64,000 bases of DNA. It comes from Pseudophaeomoniella oleicola (Eukaryota; Ascomycota; Eurotiomycetes; Phaeomoniellales; Phaeomoniellaceae). Below, in pieces: positions 43,999 through 64,000 of this stretch. A program made the position numbers and the translations under genes. Every line of letters begins with the position of its first letter. The first letter of the stretch is position 1. Location of the stretch: the NCBI GenBank assembly GCA_003868215.1, contig QWDQ01000033.1:220324-284323 (forward strand). The letters are read 5' to 3'. A model generated the notes under the pieces. It made no database searches. It was not told the origin of the DNA and worked only from the letters and a program-made list of their open reading frames with translations.

Positions 43999-46864
43999 TG
44001 GTGAGCTGCGGGATCTGAAATTCTGAGTGTTTGGGCGCTTTTCTTCGTAGTCGTTTTGGAAGTGGCATATTGAACGGGTGTCGGTGGTCTATGCCAGCGT
44101 CTTTATCTCCTGAAACCATATCTCGCTGTCCACCTTTGGACAAAGCAGGATTTCGCCAGATATGAACGAGACCAACGGTGTGTGGCGTGGCTTGACAATC
44201 AGATGAAGGTAGATTTGTTTCGAAGACGACATTTCCGCGATATTTAGCAATCATATGATGCTTATGGTGATACAGAAGACCACGAATGGTTCCCTGAAAA
44301 GGTAGGCGTGTATGCATCGTCTAGCAAGGAGCCATGATTATGACTATGAAGGTGTAATCGAGAGGAACTGGATCATCTCGTCGGCCTCGGCGCTGGTAGT
44401 CAACAAATGATATGAGAGATGTGACCCAGCATCGATGTCATGCAATAGATTAGCTAATCACAACCGGCATCGGTATGTCTGTCACAGAGTTTGAGAACCC
44501 GACGTTGTACAAGATCGAATCCTCTGTGACCTCATGCAAGAATGCTCTGCTCTGTCAGAAAGTACATCGATTGGACAATCAATCGGGATTGCACACCGTG
44601 ACCTGCTTGGGGATCCGACTTGATGGTCGCACATCAAGACGCGATTATATATTGGTCGAACCTTGGACTGAGCTGTAAACATGGCTACAGTTGTCTGACC
44701 AGCTTTCTCGGACCGGAGCACCATAATGGTCCACTCGTCGGCATCCACTTCCCACAGAGCCGTATCTGAGCGAAGCCTAGACCTCCAAAACTCTATCAAC
44801 TTCGGCGAGGTAGCATTTCGACAGTCTGCCCCGGTACAGCCACCTCGGCTATCGTCGTTGATGTGTCGAATCTCGAATGTAAGCCAAGAGAGTGCGACGA
44901 TTCCCCTCCTCGAGTGGTCACAAGGTAGGAGACCTTGAGCTGAAGAAAGAAGAACGGTGAACACACCGTCTAGGTGGGAGCAACTGTATGTCTCATGCCT
45001 GCGAAGTGTATTCTATTCCCCATGGAGATGCTCATGACAACAGACGTCCCTCTCCATGGCCGAGGTTGAGGCATTTCACATCCTGGATTTCATCTCCATT
45101 TTCGTACCTTCGGACCTCTTCCAAGATAACTTGCTCCTCCGCAGCAAGGTGAGATCATTCCTCAGCTTGTCTTCATCTCGATGTACGGGCCAGCCAGGTA
45201 TTATATTATGGTTGCAGAATCCTTCGCGCTTTCCAGGTGCTGTGTGCTGCAATATTTCCCTTCGCGGTGAAAGGCAAGTATATATCATGTGACCATGGGC
45301 TCATCCGGCGATCAAGCGGTTGAAAAGAGTCTGCTTACTTATATCATGCAGGTGCAGATAACGGCCCCCTGCCGATGTCGAAGCGAACGTGCTAAAAGCG
45401 ATGAAGATAGCTATTGCAGCACAGTGGTACAGAGCTTTGGAAGGTGTATTTCAATGACAGCCTAGGAATGTCTTCATGAACGTACTAGATTCTCAACGAT
45501 CTCTACTCATATCTCAAACTGTTCCTCACGACGGTCGTTATAATGAAACGTAAGAGGCTATGCCACGCTAGAACTTCACCCGAGGATAGATCAAGTCCTT
45601 GAACAAGTTACATCTAGAACTAAGTTGAATTCCTGGAGATGATAACTTCAGCAGTAGCGCATCCTTATCGGCACTCTGCAGCCCTGCTACATATATAGCA
45701 ACTGTGGGTAATAGCAAAATGAAAGAAATATATTTTGATATGACATTGATGATCTGATGGCTCTACGATTCTCGTCATTGTTGGCCACATGAGATTGGAA
45801 GCCATAGTTTTACTAGGTACGTAACAAGTAGACGGGCAATGGGATGACATGATGTCGTGTACTAGTACATTGAAGCCCTTGTCAATAAGCGGATAAATGA
45901 CTTCAAGTTTGTAATAGGATCCTGGCCATACGTCACCGTTCTGGCCTGCAGACAAAACAAGGTTGTTGTCTTGGCGGTTGGTTCTGGCCTGCGCTCAGGG
46001 AAGAAAAGACTGTCAATATATTCGGATTCGTAAACTTGAACCTGTTGACCTTATTCATATCCATCATATTCATCCAGAGGGTAAAGAAGAGAGAAGTGTC
46101 AGGTTGTCTGTCTATCGATCTAGGGGACAGAACAAGGACAGGACGACCTTGTACCAAAATCACAGATGCGTAAGTACCGTCTTTCTTATCTCCGTCTCCC
46201 TCCTCCGCCTTCCGCTGGTACCGACGGTGTTCGGTCTTGGGCTCGGTCTTGTGCTTCGGTCTGGTGGCGGTGCACCCACCCTTCGGTCAAAGGAAGCCTC
46301 AGAAGCTTTGAGAACGTGTTGGATTGCAGTACACTACCACCGAAAGGCGATTTGCCATAGCCAAGCACGTAACAGCAGCAATATGGCCAAATGGCACTGG
46401 CGGACGCGATTCCAACGACATTGAGAACGCGACGCAGTGACGCCCAGAGGAGGTAAGCGACTGTTGGTCGCCGATAGCTTCACAACGCCTCACTTTGCGA
46501 GGAAGGTGTCAAGAGCAGCCAAGGGTCTTTGCATCCTGAACCGATACCTGGGTTCGCTTAGCGCTAACACCAAAACCCGCCAAGCGTGTCCGCTTTTCGT
46601 ACCATGATCAGCATTCAAAGGCAATTCCCCAACTTGTCCAAGCCCTGGAATTCGCAAAAGGTCTTTCGAAGCCTTCTCTGGGTGATCAGCCTCGCCCGTT
46701 ATCTTAGGCTCCATCGCCCCCGTTCCAGGCTATCCTTAACCAATATCATCCAGATCCCTTCTTCCATCCATCCATCCCCAAACCATCTGATTTAATCCTC
46801 CCTTCTCTTCTTTTCTATCTTTCTTTAAATCATCTGCATCCTCGCAGCTCTGCTTAACACGCCG
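43999..46864. other. Gene-sparse region before the Ca2+/H+ exchanger
   Basis: 2866 bases. The left end is the promoter of the cysteine-rich protein gene. Minus-strand frames at 44482-44964 and 45665-45955 have protein-like composition but lack ATG starts, leaders and family matches; they may be decayed gene pieces. A pyrimidine-rich leader precedes the exchanger at about 46737-46830. No RNA gene seen. Confidence 0.45.
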
Positions 46865-49376
46865 ATGAACAACGAATCCGCTGACGATCCTCCTTTATCA
46901 GACCGAATCCGTTCTTGGGCTCGCTCAAAGGCACATGCCTCAAGCTTCAACCCTTTCGGTGCTGATGATCCAAACCAACATCCATCGACCCTAAGCACAT
47001 CTCCTTCTAACACCAGTACCCTGCGCCAATATGGGCGGCCTTCAAATTCACACGCAACAGCACCAACCAAGGTTAACGATGCCGACGAAGAGAAGATACC
47101 AAAGCCAGATGTGGCCGAAGAGGCAAAGTCAGGATCAGCACCCCCAGTTGCACCTCCTATGGATGCGCATAGAGAGGGAACGGAAGCTGCCTCTTTAAGT
47201 TCCAGCGAGAAGAAGAGTGTTTTGACAAGATTTTGGGAGGATACGAAAATGATCATTATGTACAATCCATGGATAAATTGGCTATTGATCTTCGTCCCGG
47301 TGGGAATCGCCTTCGGTGCCTTGATGAAGGCCAAGGGAGATGATTCGCCAATCAGTCCATCAGCTGTCTTCGCTATCAACTGTGTTGCAATCATCCCATT
47401 AGCTGGACTCCTCGCCTTCGCTACTGAGAGCGTGGCGACTAAATTGGGGGACACCATTGGTGCTTTGATGAACGTTACCTTTGGGAACGCTGTTGAGCTG
47501 ATCATCTTCATCATTGCCCTTGTGGCTAAGGAGATTCGGATTGTTCAAGCATCACTCCTGGGCTCTATTCTGGCCAACTTGCTTCTTATCCTAGGGATGT
47601 GCTTCTTGTTCGGTGGGCTCAGGTTCCGCGAACAACTATACAATCCCACGGTTGGGCAAATGAGTGCTTGCTTGCTCAGTCTCAGCGTTATCAGTCTTCT
47701 CCTTCCGACGGCCTTCCACTTTTCTTTCAACAATGCCAGTCAGACGAAAGCAGACCGTGTTGTTGTCAAGGTTAGCAGGGGTACCAGTGTCGTAAGTATA
47801 ATTTGTCTGCTCTCTTGGACTTGACTGATGTCGATATGATCAGGTCCTGCTGCTGGTATACGTGCTTTACCTGCTCTTCCAACTCAAGTCTCATGCGTAT
47901 ATGTATGAGAGCACTCCTCAGCACCTAATTGACGAAGAGTCGCACCCTGGCGTGCTCGCAGAATTCTTGGACTCATCCAGCTCTTCCGACACCTCGTCAT
48001 CAAGCGACAGCGACAGTGACAGTAGCTCCGGTTCGCATACAACGGCTAAGCGGATCAAAAGAGCTTTCCGTAGAAGACGTAAGTCTAGTGCAAGCTCGAA
48101 GGAGAACAACTCGGTGCCATCCATGGTCAGAACTCCTTCGTCTCTCACGAGCCATGTCATCGAGGAATTTCCGATGACTGCATCTCCTTTCGAGATTCCC
48201 GACAGAAATCCGCACGGACTAGAGTCTGTCATGAGTGGTGATGAGGCGGATGATGACGGTGAACGTGTGCCTTCTCATCATCGCCGTGGAACCGAGACAA
48301 GCTTTGGTGTGACATCTCGAGACTTTCAACCAGAAAACGAGTCCCACCTTTCGAAAGAGGAGAAGAGAGAAAAGAGGCGCAAGAGAAAGCAGAGCAAGAA
48401 GTATTCGAAGAAGCACAGGCACGATGATACAACGGAAGAGCATCCGGAGAAGATGGAGCAGCCTGGGGAAACTGCCGTAAACGGTGCACGCTCTACACCG
48501 CGTGTCGAATTTGCACCCCAACCCGAGCCTGCGCCTACACCTGGTGACCCCACGAGGAGACCGTTTCCTCTGAAAAGTTTACCGTTACCGGCTTTGCCGA
48601 AGGTGCTTTCGAATACAGTGTTCTTCGCTCAGAATAGTCAGGGCCTTCCACCTCCGGCCACTTCTGGATTACAGGGTCAAACAAGGACCATCCGTCGTAC
48701 CAACTCGTTACCAGATCGCCTCAACAGTAATACTGCCCAGTCTCGACCTCCGGTAACGACTAGACCTTCTGGTACTCTACCACTTTCAGCTAAGCCTCTT
48801 CCACACCTTATGCCGGTACCTGCACAGAAAGCTGAAGACGCGGAAGAAGACAAGAAAGATCATCTATCTCGAACTACGGCTATTGTCCTTCTGCTGACCA
48901 GCACCGGACTCGTCGCTGCCTGTGCCGAATTTCTCGTTGATAGCATCGACTACCTCGTTGAAACGTCAGGCATATCCCAGGCTTTTATCGGTCTGATTAT
49001 CCTACCTATCGTCGGAAACGCGGCTGAACACGTCACTGCTGTCACTGTGGCGAGCAAGAACAAGATGGATTTGGCTATTGGTGTCGCTCTGGGTTCATCA
49101 ATCCAAATAGCACTATTCGTAACACCAATCATTGTTTTGCTTGGTTGGTGTCTCGACACGGATATGTCGTTGTACTTCAGTCTGTTTGAGACCGTCAGCC
49201 TTTTCGCAAGTGCGTTTATTGTCAATTATCTCATGATTGACGGCCGAAGCAATTACCTCGAAGGAGCATTGCTCCTTGCTTCGTATATCATCATTGCAGT
49301 CGCTGCCTTCTTCTACCCTAGTTGTGAGAATCTGAGCGGTGCTGCGGGACCGGCGGATAGCAGTGGAAGTTGTTAA
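46865..49376 (+). CDS. Vacuolar-type Ca2+/H+ exchanger (CAX/Vcx1 family)
   Basis: Two exons (46865-47791 and 47844-49376, 52-base intron) encode 819 residues. CAX proteins move Ca2+ into the vacuole in exchange for protons. A disordered N-terminus of about 125 residues is followed by the first transport repeat with the GNAVELIIF cation-selectivity motif (about 208) and helices INWLLIFVPVGIAFG and ILANLLLILGMCFLFGGL. After the sixth helix (VLLLVYVLYLLFQLKS) comes a cytosolic loop of about 310 residues: a Ser/Asp run (SSSSSDTSSSSDSDSD), an Arg/Lys patch (KRIKRAFRRRRKS) and a long Pro-rich stretch. The second repeat has GNAAEHVTAVTVASKNKMDLA near 699. Both GNxxE motifs are intact, so transport should work. 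The central loop makes the protein about twice the size of yeast Vcx1 and looks like a phospho-regulatory insert. Confidence 0.92.
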
Positions 49377-55412: not shown

Positions 55413-57169
55413 TCAGGTCAGTATCAAAACATCAACTTCCAGTGGGCCCAGTCCATACTTGGAAAGTTGGTTGGTGCCATGCACATGCCAACCACTAGCA
55501 CTACCCCAGACTGTCTGGGTGATGGCCGTGACAGAAGCAGGCAGTGTGAGGATAACGGTCCCGTTGACTGCGGTGTAAGCCTCATTTACAATGCCAACCA
55601 TGATGCTGCCGTTGTACTGCCAGGCTGACGCGTCGATGCTCGAAGCTGAGGTAGCATTCGAGACGGAGACAGGGATCGTTTGTAAGGGAAGAGAGTTCAA
55701 CAAGAACGACGCAGCGGTGCCTCTTGTGATAGCAGTGGCGTATGCAGATGTTGCGTTGCCCAGCTCATCGCTGCTTGGGTAGATCCATGTCGATATCCCC
55801 ATCGCATGATGGTTGATAGCGAGTTGTTGCATCACCACTTCCTCCACCCCCGTTGGATACCTCGGCCAGTAGGTGTCGTTTCCGAACCCTTGTGGAGCAG
55901 CCCATATGGGCTTATGCTGTCGATAATCCTCCTGATATGCGCGCAGGATATCTATCCGTGTAGGCACATCACTGACAGAGCCGATGCACCCATCACATCC
56001 ACAGTCGCCTTGATCCCAGGTGCACGGGGTATCGTATTGAGTAGACCATGTAGCGTTGATGCCTATTGGATAAGCATCTTCGAGTATGATGTCTGCTCCA
56101 AGTGAATACGCCTCGTAATAGAAGTCAATGCAGTTCAAAACCAAGCTAACGGGATGGTACGGATTCAATGCCTTGATCTGGTTGTAGGCAATCTGCGTTG
56201 AATTCAGAGGGTAAGACCATCCATCAGGTTCATCAGCAGTATACCACATGAGAAGACAAGTACGATTCAGGTACTGCGAGACTTGAGAAGTAACAAGACT
56301 CGAGTTCATGTATGTACCCCGCATGTCGTAGACGAGATAAAGCCCGATTTCTTCCATCCGGTCCAGGAATGTATCGAAGGCAGGTTGTGCAAACGGTGAT
56401 GTTAGGTTGCTATCGTCAGGGACAAAATGTATGAAGTTGTAGCCGGCATCAAGGTAAGCATTGGCATTGTCAGGGTTGCTTGTGATACCGGAGTTCGCAT
56501 ACCAACCGTAAGGAAAGAGTTGCGTCCATGCCGTCAGATCTGACGCTCTGGCAACGAGGAGCCCCTCGAACAGATTGTCGATTTTCGTGACACTGCCGGA
56601 TGAGGGATCTGGAAGGTAGGAGAGATGTGTATGAGCCGTGAATACCTGTGTGGTCCCCGGCGCTGTCAAAGAAATAGTAATGTCATAAGGTGTGCTCCGG
56701 GGACTCAAAGAGGACAATGAAAAGAAAACCTCATTGGATGTCGAGTCGAGAGAGGCACCACCGGTAGCAAGTGTAACACTTCTATTACCAGAGACCGTGA
56801 TGGTGAAGTTCAGCACAGCAGTGGTACTATTCAATCCATGGTAGGCGACGCCATGGTAATTCGAAAGCGGAACGTCTACAATGAACGACCCGGAACTCTC
56901 GGACTCCAAGTAAAGATTATATCGCGGTTGTATAGAAAGATCCAGTAACGGGGTGGATGAAAAGGTAGGGTTCGGAGTCTGACCTCCGGGGTCTTGTGGT
57001 GCAAGACTGTCTCTGCTGTTAGATCTCATGAAGCAATACCGCCGGCATCATCTCACTTAGGCTCGTATGGTTTTCCACACCAAGAATTCCCAAACGGCGT
57101 GAAGGCGTTGACGCAGTTGCTGGTCACAAGTCCGGCCAGGACGAACACATCAAGTCGAAATCGGCGCAT
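55413..57169 (-). CDS. Secreted glycoside-hydrolase-like (TIM-barrel) protein
   Basis: Two exons (57169-57057 and 57006-55413, 50-base intron) encode 568 residues. The small first exon supplies the signal peptide (MRRFRLDVFVLAGLVTSNCV, cleavage probably after NA) and NSWCGKPYEP, joined to NLAPQDPGGQTPNP. Residues about 60-200 are a beta-rich domain. From about 210 a TIM-barrel-like order of segments appears: GYNFIHFVPDDSN, LDRMEEIGLYLVYDMRG, CLLMWYTADEPDGWS (a candidate acid/base Glu), YHPVSLVLNCIDFYY, GADIILEDAYPIG, KPIWAAPQGFGNDTYWP and HHAMGISTWIYPSSDE. A C-terminal beta domain closes it. Many N-x-S/T sites and a Cys-rich CTWDQGDCGCDGC loop fit an extracellular protein. I cannot name the CAZy family or substrate. 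Calling the gene from the second exon alone would lose the secretion signal. Confidence 0.8.
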
Positions 57170-58153: not shown

Positions 58154-58649
58154 CTAAGCCTTGCCTCTTGGAATCCTTCTTGGTATCGTCCATGGTTCAG
58201 CGCAGACGACCTCACCCTCGCTATATCCCCAGAAGTATGCAACCATCCCAATGACGTAATATATCGCCGGGTTCGTGGCCTGATACAGCAACGCTGCTGC
58301 TAGGGCAAACAACGGATACACAACTAGCCTCGCCTCGATCGATCGATGTATCATTGTCCCAGCGATGGGCTTGAGTGGCCATTCGAATGCGACTGTGGCC
58401 AGGCCGAAGAGTAGATTCAATATCTGGAGAATGGGAAACGGTTTGACGGCTCCATCAAGGTTGTGGGTAAGAAAATCCCAGAATATCTTGGGCCAAAAGA
58501 ACCCTTCTATTGCGGCGCCTACCTGATCTGATGAAACGGGAGATGTTAGTTGTCCGGTCTTCCGAAAAAAAGAGATCACGATGGCACGTACAAGCTCCCG
58601 CAGTAAGAATGATGAGTCGTGCCCAGTGGTTCTTGATCAGTTTACCCAT
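58154..58649 (-). CDS. noxD: NoxD/PRO41 small membrane protein (p22phox counterpart)
   Basis: Two exons (58649-58592 and 58527-58154, 64-base intron) encode 143 residues. PRO41/NoxD was described in Sordaria, Podospora and Botrytis as an ER membrane protein needed for NoxA (Nox1) function, and is regarded as the fungal counterpart of p22phox. Visible features: start MGKLIKNHWARLIILTAGAY, then AAIEGFFWPKIFWDF and GAVKPFPILQILNLLFGL, and four hydrophobic segments at about 11-30, 50-67, 87-101 and 106-121. Two short matches to p22phox support the link: F-E-W-P at 67-70 (LEYP in human) and G-E-V-V-C-A-E-P-W at 124-132 (GEQWTPIEP in human). The short basic tail RRIPRGK replaces the long Pro-rich p22phox tail. 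The gene faces noxA across a 2.9-kb intergenic region. Confidence 0.85.
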
Positions 58650-61542
58650 GGTGCCTGTAAGATGTCTAATCTAAGTTGGAGGTAGACGGCGGTTGTCTTG
58701 TTGGTAGGAATAATGATGATGATGATGGTGGTGGTGATCCAATTAAGATGATATAATGAATGTCAAGGCCGGCCGGCGGCGAAGTTCGAATCGAAAGAGA
58801 GGCGAAGGTCGGTGAAAGGGAGCGTATTCAAGCTCGTCGTCGTGGTCAGTTATTCGCACAGCGAAACGGCTTGACCTCTTTCAAATCACCTTCCAAGCAT
58901 GCGAGGATGCCAGGGTATATGAGAGCAGTCTGATAGACCTTCTTGACAATATTAACGGAGTAATGGTCGTGTATGTCAATGCAGTGAGTGTTATCCACCT
59001 AGTCGATCAATGCTGCTGTGTCGAGTGATCCTGAGACGACAGTTCCTGAGCGGAAATCGGGCGAAGCGAGCATGAAAACATGAAGTGTTACAGAATCCGA
59101 TCTTGCCTCGGAGGGGGGACAATGGCGAGATGATAGGGCATTGACAGTCACTTCACCGCATTGCTACTCATCGTGTGTGACCATCAATGGTCTGCTGTGG
59201 CGTACAGCCACCCCTGTACACACCTACACATCTTTTCGACTTAGACTGCGATCTGGGCGGCACTGGGGAACAGACCATGCAGGGTCGAGGGCACATCGAT
59301 TGGACGAATCACCTCTCAGGCACAGCATCAATGGCTGGGATTGGATGCGGTTGGGTGAAAGGATCAACACGGTTGTATGATGTCGACCGGGACAATGGAG
59401 GTAAGAAGATAGTGGAGGAGGGTGATGGAGGGCGATAGAGGGGTCTGGTTCGATGTGCACATCCAGGCAAAGCGAGGAACACGCCAATGATCAATCATAG
59501 GCGCCAAGGGTCAATCATAGGCGCCAAGGGTCAGGGATGCGACGAATGATGTTGGAGAGTAGGGTGTTCTGAGACCGATCTGAGGCGTCTTCGCCTGTAA
59601 GTCTTAACTAAATGGGGGTTAGAGAGCGGATACACGCCTACTACGGGTATGCAATCACTCACAGTCTCGCAGTATCACCTTTTGTGCACTTGCAGCGACA
59701 GGCACTATTCCAAGGTTTGATCATGACCCGGATTCCATGCAGCAGAAGACGCCAGCAATCGTCAACAATAGTGTCTTTCTTGACTTGGGCGCTTACATGA
59801 CTGTTGCTATAGGATCACCAGAGCTCGCTACTGTGACTTTTGCTCCATGTTACGTCGTCCTCCGTCCGGGAAAACGAATGGCATTGCTTCCTTCGCTCTG
59901 TTAATCGAGACTATCGGCTACAGTCATTGATTCATAGGTGCCCAAGAGGAGAGTGACAGGTTGTGACGGTGAAAGAACACGGGCATGTCCAGCCAGCTAA
60001 ACGGTGCATCTTGACCTTAAATTAGAACACTTTCGCTAAACAGTTGATGGTTAAGGTACGTAGTAGGTAAGATATTGCCCTGGGTGATGAGCAAGATGAA
60101 TTGGATAATTGCACGTCTTCAACAATGTAGAGTGTAGAGTGTAAAGTGTAGATTATAGGATACCTACACGTACCTACCTTAGTTGACTAGGTGTTCACCT
60201 GATGTATTATCCCAGATATCTACTGAAAAGTCAAGGACAAATAATGTTCCGTATGTTGATAGTATTGCTATTAAGTCACTGCTAGATCAACTAAGGTAGT
60301 TGGGGTTCCTCTTGTCTGCTAAAATTGGGTACAAAGTTGACCAAGTCACATCCCATCAGCGGTTACATTCGCTCTACACCGCCCATACATGCATAGTCTC
60401 TCTCTGCATGGAGCCAATCATGCAAAGAAGATCAATCCAAGTCATGAGCTTTGATGTCTGGCAACCGGCGTCGACCCAGCATCCAGCCTCTATCACGGTG
60501 AATCATCCGTCTCTGTGTGATCACCCCCGCCTTCTCATCTGCTTCCAGTCGAATTGGCAATGGAGGAGACTCAACGCAATGTCATCGTCGTCTGCCTCTG
60601 TAAACCTTCTCACCATTTCTTCTTTTGCATAGATCAACACATATAATCTCCAGGTGCATTTTGCGTGAACTCATTGCAAAAGTCGCTGAAACACATCACC
60701 AGTTTGAACTTACTCCGTACATCAGAGGCCATTTCCTGATCTGGTCTAGCAAGTGACCCCTGGTCGCATATCAACCATACTGAAGCACTACTCGTATGAG
60801 ATCTCTCAGACATCGTTGACAGAGCCTCAACGTCCCGACAATCTCGAAGTGTCATTTCAGCCGTCACTACGAACATCCTGCAACGCCCAGCCGTTTGACC
60901 TAGCAGTTACCGAGTCCACGGAATCAAGCCATTTTAGATCTTCCTCTTGGCTCCATCATCACAACCATAATGCTTCTTCGCCTATGATCGCTTCTGCCAT
61001 TTGAAGCGTTCTCTGTTTCCTGTCGTACCCGGAACGTCAGACTACAAGCAGCGTGCTTGAGAAAACGCCTCTTTGGTGATCCCTACTGGATCTATCTGGC
61101 GATACCGATCAACCTCAGCGAAAATTATCGGTCCTCCCGCAAACGAGAGACGCTCTCCCAACCCATCTTATCACCAGCGGAGCCGTTGAGATCATCCTGT
61201 TCCACCGGCTGGACGCTTGTCCGTTGATAGTCCATTCTCATCCAAGTAGAAGTCCTTGCATCTTTCACCTTTTAATACCTGAACCTATCCCTCCGCCCAC
61301 ATTTAGTCTTGGTTCAGGTCTGCAGGACAACCTCTACAACATTGTGCTCGAGCCTTCTTTCCTCTTCGGTCGTTCACTTCTCTTGTACCTGGCGGCGCCA
61401 GTATACTTGGTCCAACGCGGACATTTCAACTAATATTTCCATCGCTGGTCGACGATCCTATTTCGAACCTGCTTCCAAATCACCAAATACGACTTATTCC
61501 TGACATATCTAATAATATTGTCATTTCTCGACACTTTACAAA
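58650..61542. promoter_or_regulatory. 2.9-kb divergent intergenic region between noxD and noxA
   Basis: This 2893-base region separates the two start codons and must contain both promoters. It holds a perfect 20-base tandem duplication (59491-59530), a TACGTAGTA word at 60057-60065, and several GTAGAGTGTAGAGTGTA-type short repeats near 60127-60150. Many stop codons in all frames argue against a gene. The last 330 bases before noxA are C/T-rich in places (61330-61400), as in a transcribed leader. Confidence 0.6.
59491..59530 (+). repeat. Perfect 20-base tandem duplication
   Basis: The unit TCAATCATAGGCGCCAAGGG occurs twice in direct succession within the noxD-noxA intergenic region. Confidence 0.9.
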
Positions 61543-63301
61543 ATGGGGGCTTCTCTAAAATCCCATTTTGCTGGCTCGAAGATCATCTTCTATGTTCTCT
61601 TCTGGTCATTGCACTGGGGGTTGTTTGCGTTGGGATGGTATGTCTCGCTCTCAGTCTGTGTTGGGGGATGAAAGCTTACAGAATAACAGGATCAAGCAAG
61701 CTGATGACAAGAGGCTAGCGGCTCTCAATGGTCTCAAGTTCTCCGTCTGGATCTCTCGAGGTGCTGGACTTGTTCTGTCTGTCGACGGATTAATGATTCT
61801 GCTTCCTATGTGTAGGACCATATTACGGGTTGTCCGACCTAAAATCAAATGGTTACCGCTGGACGAAAGCCAGTGGTTCCATCGACAAGTCGCGTATGCT
61901 TTGCTCTTGTTCACGATAATACACACCTCAGGGCACTACGTCAATTTCTTCAACGTCGAGAAGACACAAGTCCGACCAGAGCTGGCCGTCCAGATCCACT
62001 ATACGCAGGCTGGTGGCATCACAGGCCATATCATGCTTCTTTGCATGCTGCTCATGTACACCACAGCTCACTACAAAATCAGGCAGCAATCATTCGAGAC
62101 ATTTTGGTATACGCACCATCTGTTCATCCCATTCATGCTTGGCCTTTACACCCACGCAACAGGTTGTTTCGTGCGTGACTCGGTCGACCCATTCTCACCT
62201 TTGGCAGGAAAGCCATTCTGGAACCATTGCTTGGGTTATGAAGGATGGAGATGGGAACTTTGGGGAGGTGGCTTGTATCTTATTGAACGCCTCTACCGCG
62301 AAGTTCGTGCTCGACGTGAGACTGAGATCATCAAGGTTGTCAGACATCCATATGGTGAGACTGCTTGAACCTAACCAGACTACAAACACCCACTGACGGA
62401 ATCTACTACAGATGCGATGGAAATTCAGTTCCGAAAACCCAGCATGAGATATAAGGCCGGTCAATGGTTGTTCCTGCAAGTCCCCTCTGTGTCAGCCCAA
62501 CAGTGGCATCCATTCACGATCACATCGTGCCCATTCGATCCATATATCAGTGTGCATGTCCGCCAAGTGGGTGACTTCACTCGGTCTCTTGGTGACGCCT
62601 TAGGCTGCGGCCCGTCCCAAGCCAAAGCTTATGACGGTCTGGATCCCATGGGCATGTATGAAATCGCCTTACAAAATGGCCAGCAGATGCCGAAACTGCG
62701 CATCGACGGCCCTTACGGAGCTCCTGCTGAAGATGTGTTTGACAACGAAATCGCCGTTCTGATCGGTACTGGCATCGGTGTCACCCCGTGGGCGTCTATA
62801 CTGAAGAACATCTGGCATTTACGTAGCGGGCCCAACCCACCCCAACGTCTCCGCCGTGTAGAGTTTATCTGGGTCTGCAAAGATACGACTTCCTTCGAAT
62901 GGTTCCAAACCCTCCTCTCCTCCCTCGAAGCCCAATCTGCGTCCGCCGCCTCTTCAGTTGGTGGACCCGAATTCCTCCGCATCCACACCTACCTAACCCA
63001 AAAGCTCGACCAAGACACGGCCGCCAACATCTACCTCAACAGCGTCGGCGCTCAAGTCGATCCCTTGACCGAACTCAAGACACGCACCAACTTCGGGCGA
63101 CCGGACTTCAAGCGTCTCTTCTCCGCCATGCGCGACGGTCTGACTGACCAGACCTACATGTCCGGTCTCTCAGGTTCAATTACCACCGATGTCGGTGTAT
63201 ACTTTTGCGGCCCCAGCGCCGCTGCTCGGGATATCAAGGTGGCAGCGAAATCCAGTTCTTCGAGAGACGTCAAGTTCAAATTCTGGAAGGAACATTTCTA
63301 G
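61543..63301 (+). CDS. noxA: NADPH oxidase NoxA (Nox1)
   Basis: Three exons (61543-61637, 61690-62354, 62412-63301) encode 549 residues, the usual NoxA length. NoxA transfers electrons from NADPH through FAD and two haems to O2, making superoxide for sexual development, hyphal fusion and infection structures. The start MGASLKSHFAGSKIIFYVLF is joined by the first intron to FALGW-IKQADDKRLAALNG. Haem-ligand helices carry FHRQVAYALLLFTIIHTSGH (near 95-115) and FETFWYTHHLFIPFMLGLYT. The FAD motif QWHPFTIT is near 285, the NADPH-binding IGTGIGVTPWASILKN near 371, a second nucleotide-site CGPSA near the end, and the terminal KFWKEHF matches NOX C-termini. There is no N-terminal EF-hand (excludes NoxC) and no NoxB-type N-terminal extension. 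All key residues look intact. Its partner noxD lies head-to-head upstream. Confidence 0.95.
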
Positions 63302-64000
63302 TCTACTTTTTTTTTAAAAAGAAAAAAAAAAACGTATAGCCCCTTGGTGTATATCCCTCTTTTGTGTACGTGTATCGACCCAATTCGAAATTTTTCTCCT
63401 AAAGATTCTTGCCCTATAAACCTCTCACTTTTCTTACCCTTGAGAGATTGAACAAACGACGTGTAACAAATTACAACAGAGACTCTACTACGGGGGGGAA
63501 AAGGCTAGTTTATTTGTCTTTCCCTTTGTGTCTGTCTTACGCTATGTAATTAGTGATAATTAGATGGGGGGAAACAAGGGAATGAACGAACGAACGAATG
63601 AATGAATCAAGAATATCCATTTAGTAGTTAGTTTCTTAATGTACATACGCAGATGGGGGGGCAGGAGAGATGATGTAAAGAAGTTAATTAACACAGTCCT
63701 TCTGCTTCTCCTCCACCTTCATCCTCCCTCTCTGGGTATCTCTTACGTACATATATACATACATATGTACCTACCTTCATAGTAGTAGTAGCCACCCCAT
63801 CGATATCTCAACAACCAAAAAGGATTACATCTGGAGATTCTATTCATTAATGATTCCCTTGGACGTCATGAATATATATGTATATCTTTGTTGTGGCAGG
63901 CATGAGTCGTAGATCACCGAGGGTACGTAGTGCCACCAGTAGGTCCTACGGGTGTCAAGGGACTAGAGGTGGTACTATTGTAACCATAGCTTGAGGACGA
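63302..64000 (+). other. noxA 3' region with T/A run
   Basis: 699 bases after noxA. A T9-A5-G-A11 stretch (63307-63332) begins six bases after the stop codon and could form a short A/T hairpin. A GAAC/GAAT tetranucleotide run lies near 63585-63605. No gene seen up to the window end. Confidence 0.5.

Follow-up and report, generated by a model that had tools for sequence, protein, structure and literature searches.

The noxD and noxA genes and their products

The window analysed here is a 64,000-nucleotide stretch of the Pseudophaeomoniella oleicola genome (assembly GCA_003868215.1, 26.1 Mb in 112 contigs), which forms the terminal 64 kb of the 284,323-bp contig C40 (QWDQ01000033.1; C40:220324-284323). 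It carries two genes in head-to-head orientation, noxD and noxA, which encode the putative small membrane subunit and the catalytic subunit of a fungal NADPH oxidase. The noxD gene (also known as PRO41 or HAM-6; 58154..58649, minus strand) encodes a p22phox-like protein of 143 residues in two exons (58649-58592 and 58527-58154), separated by one 64-nucleotide intron (GTACGT...CAG). The noxA gene (nox1; 61543..63301, plus strand) encodes a gp91phox/NOX2-type protein of 549 residues in three exons (61543-61637, 61690-62354, and 62412-63301), with two GT-AG introns of 52 and 57 nucleotides. All three introns are short and of the GT-AG type; other frame-keeping splice pairs are present, and the chosen pairs are those that yield the conserved protein. 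Both genes are intact, and their start codons are separated by 2,893 bp, a shared intergenic region (58650..61542, GC content 48.3%) in which Pfam, Rfam, and tRNA scans revealed no recognisable gene. The gene models and profiles bear out the original prediction in its gene identities, orientation, coordinates, 143-residue length, and 2.9-kb spacing. Between the end of noxA and the end of contig C40 lie 699 bp (63302-64000), and the downstream neighbour of noxA is not visible in this assembly.

Residues 1-125 of NoxD match the whole of PF24853 (DUF7727; profile positions 1-139 of 139) with 179.9 bits against a cut-off of 27, and among the matches listed several sources name the homologues PRO41 or pro41, e.g., in Phaeomoniella, Coccidioides, and Pseudovirgaria. 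The original prediction named a missing PRO41/NoxD match of the 143-residue protein as a refutation; the match found is strong. The closest named NoxD among the matches listed is that of Phaeomoniella chlamydospora (79%; Chaetothyriomycetidae, Eurotiomycetes), and a genome search found a single noxD. For the fold modelled for P0002, a close homologue of NoxD, the best match is human p22phox, whose chains take the top three places in both comparisons. The NoxD sequence profile matched nothing in the Protein Data Bank, so the p22phox link of NoxD is drawn from fold, and on this modelled fold noxD and noxA are a pair of the gp91phox/p22phox type. The p22phox protein has a proline-rich cytoplasmic tail that binds p47phox; by reading, NoxD has no proline-rich stretch and stops a dozen residues past a conserved EPW, and it is therefore filed as NoxD and not as p22phox itself. 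Physical interaction between NoxD and NoxA has been reported in Botrytis and Magnaporthe.

NoxA scores above the cut-offs of PF01794, PF08022, and PF08030 (ferric-reductase transmembrane, FAD-binding, and NAD-binding, respectively). These are the only Pfam families found at E 0.001 in its 549 residues, which thus hold no EF-hand, unlike NoxC/NOX5. It matches human NOX2 with an E value of 4.3e-78. The four haem-ligand histidines of NOX2 (H101, H115, H209, and H222) are aligned in the closest NoxA homologue (P0121), and the NoxA of the window carries the same histidine strings, FHRQVAYALLLFTIIHT and YTHHLFIPFMLGLYTHATG. Homologues among the matches listed are named NADPH oxidase or NoxA by several sources, the closest named one being that of Pyrenula ochraceoflavens (86%; Chaetothyriomycetidae, Eurotiomycetes). 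Phaeomoniella chlamydospora, the source of the closest named NoxD, is absent from the best 120 NoxA homologues, and its noxA model may be broken or missing.

Besides noxA, the genome holds one further high-scoring Nox-type gene (contig C45:99099-100712). NoxA is 76-91% identical to the best 120 homologues listed versus 40% to this paralogue, which identifies it as NoxA rather than NoxB, and the C45 gene is probably NoxB. The open frame of the noxB-like gene spans C45:99099-101048 (minus strand), and by eye, nearby frames within C45:96000-105999 resemble a ubiquitin-conjugating enzyme and an acyl-CoA dehydrogenase. Three tetraspanin matches in the genome, candidates for the NoxB partner Pls1, all lie on contigs other than that of the noxB-like gene. 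A scan of viral contigs with the NoxA homologue P0121 found nothing, and a scan of genome contigs with a NoxA profile gave 14 pattern matches with no relative among them.

Linkage of noxD and noxA across fungi

The list of NoxD homologues was compared with two lists of NoxA homologues, using the best 120 of 1,356, 2,021, and 1,725 matches, respectively; the two NoxA searches scored those 7,994 candidates that had the most words in common with the query. An organism name was carried by 54 of the 120 NoxD entries; unnamed entries were dropped, as were 35 named ones that had no NoxA entry from the same species. Each protein cluster was represented by its longest contig, which served as a fingerprint of linkage together with locus tags where these were printed. 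In this way 19 species were named in both the NoxD and NoxA lists, and in 14 of them the two proteins show one contig, identical in size to the base, while cross-species comparisons among the same 19 gave no contig agreement in 342. The linkage seen in the window thus recurs in other species, so that a second refuting condition of the original prediction, a lack of conserved linkage, does not hold. The recurrence also argues that the linkage is more than chance, and this conservation goes beyond what the original prediction, made from the window by itself, could know.

Locus tags are consecutive in seven of the 14 linked species: Loxospora (MMC20_005271/005272), Polytolypa (AJ80_09734/09733), Pycnora (M1827_001331/001332), Cirrosporium (M1834_003831/003830), Heterodermia (HETSPECPRED_001330/001331), Thelocarpon (M1832_003044/003043), and Sclerophora (M1837_000549/000548). 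The remaining seven (Rasamsonia, Thermoascus, Coccidioides, Patellaria, Lineolata, Aplosporella, and Coniosporium) share the contig only. Tag numbers for both genes were available in nine linked species, i.e., the seven above and Rasamsonia (10003/10001, two apart) and Aplosporella (289279/231644, far apart). The numbers of these last two are of JGI style, need not follow position, and so neither support nor exclude adjacency. In Coniosporium, the NoxA cluster is named C. apollinis, yet its longest contig is the same as the one found for C. tulheliwenetii. According to a taxonomy look-up, the 14 linked species are drawn from Eurotiomycetes, Lecanoromycetes, Candelariomycetes, Xylobotryomycetes, Thelocarpales, Coniocybomycetes, and Dothideomycetes.

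In the other five of the 19 species the contigs differ, namely Amorphotheca, Pseudogymnoascus, Lachnellula, and Ophiostoma, all of them sordariomyceta, and Aspergillus oleicola. The genes are clearly unlinked in Amorphotheca and Ophiostoma, where they lie on megabase contigs. Lachnellula is uninformative (its noxA contig is 5 kb), the result in Aspergillus oleicola could reflect a contig break, and the NoxD cluster of Pseudogymnoascus spans four contigs, the longest of which may belong to another strain, with tags V501_04490/05865 far apart. Linkage was scored in 14 of 15 species outside sordariomyceta versus none of four inside (Fisher P 0.0013, for species that are not phylogenetically independent).

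Podospora, Sordaria, Neurospora, Botrytis, the rice blast fungus, and Fusarium belong to sordariomyceta. Their published tags tell the same story: the two genes are not neighbours in Podospora (Pa_1_2410/Pa_1_7250; PMC6162560), Sordaria (SMAC_05007/SMAC_04848), Neurospora (NCU02110/NCU02767), Botrytis (Bcin05g00350/Bcin01g08690), rice blast (MGG_00750/MGG_09956; PMC5542705), or Fusarium (FGRRES_00739/FGSG_01268). Tag numbers are a rough guide to position, and none of these six pairs is close. The NoxD studies met in the literature mostly concern those models, with the exception of hamF of Aspergillus flavus; as NoxD has mostly been worked on in unlinked species, the linkage may have gone unnoticed. 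The original prediction knew of no description of it in fungi, and our literature search, which did not extend to the founding papers on NoxD by Lacaze (2015) and Siegmund (2015), agrees. In a 2007 synteny analysis of Nox regulators, the excerpted synteny passages concern vertebrate genes (PMC2121648).

The intergenic region and the PRO1 motif

We considered a hidden gene between noxD and noxA and rejected it, because no Pfam, Rfam, or tRNA match was found and because the tags are consecutive in seven species. Ten open frames of the region (62-117 residues; part of all frames there) had no significant Pfam match, the best value being an E of 0.042, below the family's cut-off; no Rfam family reached its gathering score in the 64-kb window, which also holds no tRNA according to ARAGORN in its bacterial setting. 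By eye, the intergenic region contains two tandem copies of the 20-bp unit tcaatcataggcgccaaggg at 59491-59530. Farther into the window, the next long open frame past the noxD stop encodes 544 residues (55416-57047, minus strand) and has no Pfam match, and two adjacent frames at 46829-49373 match the sodium/calcium exchanger family and are probably a single spliced gene.

The motif GGCGCTTA, an exact match to the published PRO1/ADV-1/ProA consensus (PMC6162560, PMC6589725), occurs once in the 64 kb, at 59788..59795 (plus strand) between noxD and noxA; 1.04 copies would be expected in the whole window. From its genome count (377 in 26.1 Mb), 0.042 copies are expected in the intergenic region (P about 0.04). 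With at most one mismatch, the PRO1 motif occurs three times in the region versus 1.04 expected from the window. In Sordaria, PRO1 has been reported bound to GGCGCTTA at the promoter of nox1 as well as that of pro41, two genes that are unlinked there (Steffens 2016, as cited in PMC6589725). In rice blast, Nox1 and Pro41 were both reduced in progeny with dysfunctional Pro1 (PMC10320130), and the ADV-1 targets in Neurospora include ham-6, i.e., noxD (PMC5217103). There is also a precedent in Epichloe, where ProA binds between the divergent genes esdC and EF320 (PMC6589725). Joint control of noxD and noxA is plausible on these grounds, though unproven.

Several observations weigh against joint control through PRO1. 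The GGCGCTTA test is post hoc and weak at P about 0.04, and the motif is not enriched genome-wide (377 copies versus 468 for the reversed control). Its shorter form GCGCTTA is not enriched either (three in the window versus 3.9 expected, one of them in the intergenic region), nor is TGAAACA, presumably a Ste12/Mst12-type site (12 in the window versus 11.3 expected, again one in the intergenic region). The upstream gap of the noxB-like gene has no exact GGCGCTTA; an exact copy lies at C45:98081, about 1 kb past the stop of that gene. A classical bidirectional promoter has its transcription starts less than about 1 kb apart; the start codons here stand 2.9 kb apart, a spacing larger than such a promoter and one that could accommodate two independent promoters. 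Podospora lacking PaPro1 shows half the PaNoxD expression with PaNox1 unchanged, and upstream of PaNoxD no site exceeds the strict cut-off (PMC6162560). Among the ADV-1 targets of Neurospora, nox-1 is not named in the passages cited (PMC5217103), and rice blast NOXD is also under Tpc1/Mst12, so PRO1 is not the sole candidate (PMC5542705). Finally, sordariomyceta have a working enzyme without the linkage, which is thus dispensable, and the four linked Dothideomycetes show contig sharing only, adjacency of the genes there being presumed.

Origin of the pair and comparison with known systems

Filamentous ascomycetes generally show poor conservation of gene order among themselves (PMC3219968), which makes a functional reason for the linkage plausible. 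The explanation we favour, and hold to be somewhat better than an even bet, is an old conserved noxD-noxA pair that is kept together most likely for shared regulatory DNA, with PRO1 as the best candidate regulator. NoxA would take electrons from NADPH and pass them through the membrane to oxygen, with NoxD as its p22phox-like partner. The pair would date to an ancestor common to Eurotiomycetes, Lecanoromycetes-type lineages, and Dothideomycetes, presumably in the divergent orientation seen in the window, and the two genes would have come apart in sordariomyceta and in one Aspergillus or more; we infer that the pair is old, and that the lineage leading to the experimental models either lost it or never acquired it. 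In this view the shared 2.9-kb region would most likely carry regulatory DNA needed by both genes, and PRO1 (ADV-1/ProA), a factor in fruiting-body formation and cell fusion, would be the best candidate to act on it. A more specific version seems doubtful to us, in which an ancestral control block of leotiomyceta balanced both subunits through one PRO1-responsive region, and sordariomyceta, to which most laboratory models of the enzyme belong, split this block and re-coupled the genes in trans via a separate PRO1 site at each.

The chief competitor, which we regard as a serious possibility of rather less than even probability, is an ancestral conserved pair without joint control, in which breaks within the 2.9-kb region would harm one promoter, or local synteny simply decays slowly. 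This would fit the large spacing, the effect of PaPro1 on one Podospora gene only (PMC6162560), and the working complex of unlinked species, and in Podospora the unlinked genes each have a long upstream region of 3,774 and 3,630 bp (PMC6162560 Table 1). It accounts less readily for two subunits of one complex remaining linked across seven lineages despite scrambled gene order (PMC3219968), or for the response of both Nox1 and Pro41 to Pro1 in rice blast (PMC10320130). We consider it very improbable that the linkage is a meaningless accident of this lineage. About a quarter of adjacent pairs are divergent by chance, so orientation by itself is uninformative; nevertheless, the contig sharing in 14 of 19 species corresponds to a product of chances of about 1e-25 (assuming a 30-Mb genome, random placement, and independence), and together with the seven consecutive-tag pairs it refutes chance as a full account. 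An artefact of assembly might be suspected because noxA stops 699 bp short of the end of contig C40, but it deserves even less credit, since noxD, noxA, and the region between form one uninterrupted stretch without N, and independent assemblies show the same linkage.

Subunits of the gp91phox/p22phox type act as one unit, yet both humans and the fungal models have their genes apart. An old and widely kept pair, if true, would suggest cis-linked expression in much of Pezizomycotina, and the evolution of subunit balance and of cell-fusion and fruiting-body control would become a comparison of linked and unlinked species. The linkage is also an easy additional mark for true noxA and noxD orthologues. 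It will interest those working on fungal oxidases and on the evolution of gene order.

The components of the pair are already known, and conserved divergent gene pairs are a known arrangement. The sordariomyceta models (Podospora, Sordaria, Neurospora, Botrytis, Magnaporthe, and Fusarium) have the same NoxD/PRO41/HAM-6 and NoxA/Nox1 families, whereas their two genes, judged by tags, are not neighbours as they are here. In humans, CYBB (gp91phox) and CYBA (p22phox) lie on different chromosomes, while their counterparts are paired in P. oleicola, where NoxD also goes without the long proline-rich tail of p22phox. The closest parallel in arrangement is esdC/EF320 of Epichloe, which likewise diverge from DNA that has a PRO1/ProA site (PMC6589725); ProA binding has been reported there, whereas the noxD-noxA region offers the motif alone, and its genes encode partners of one enzyme.

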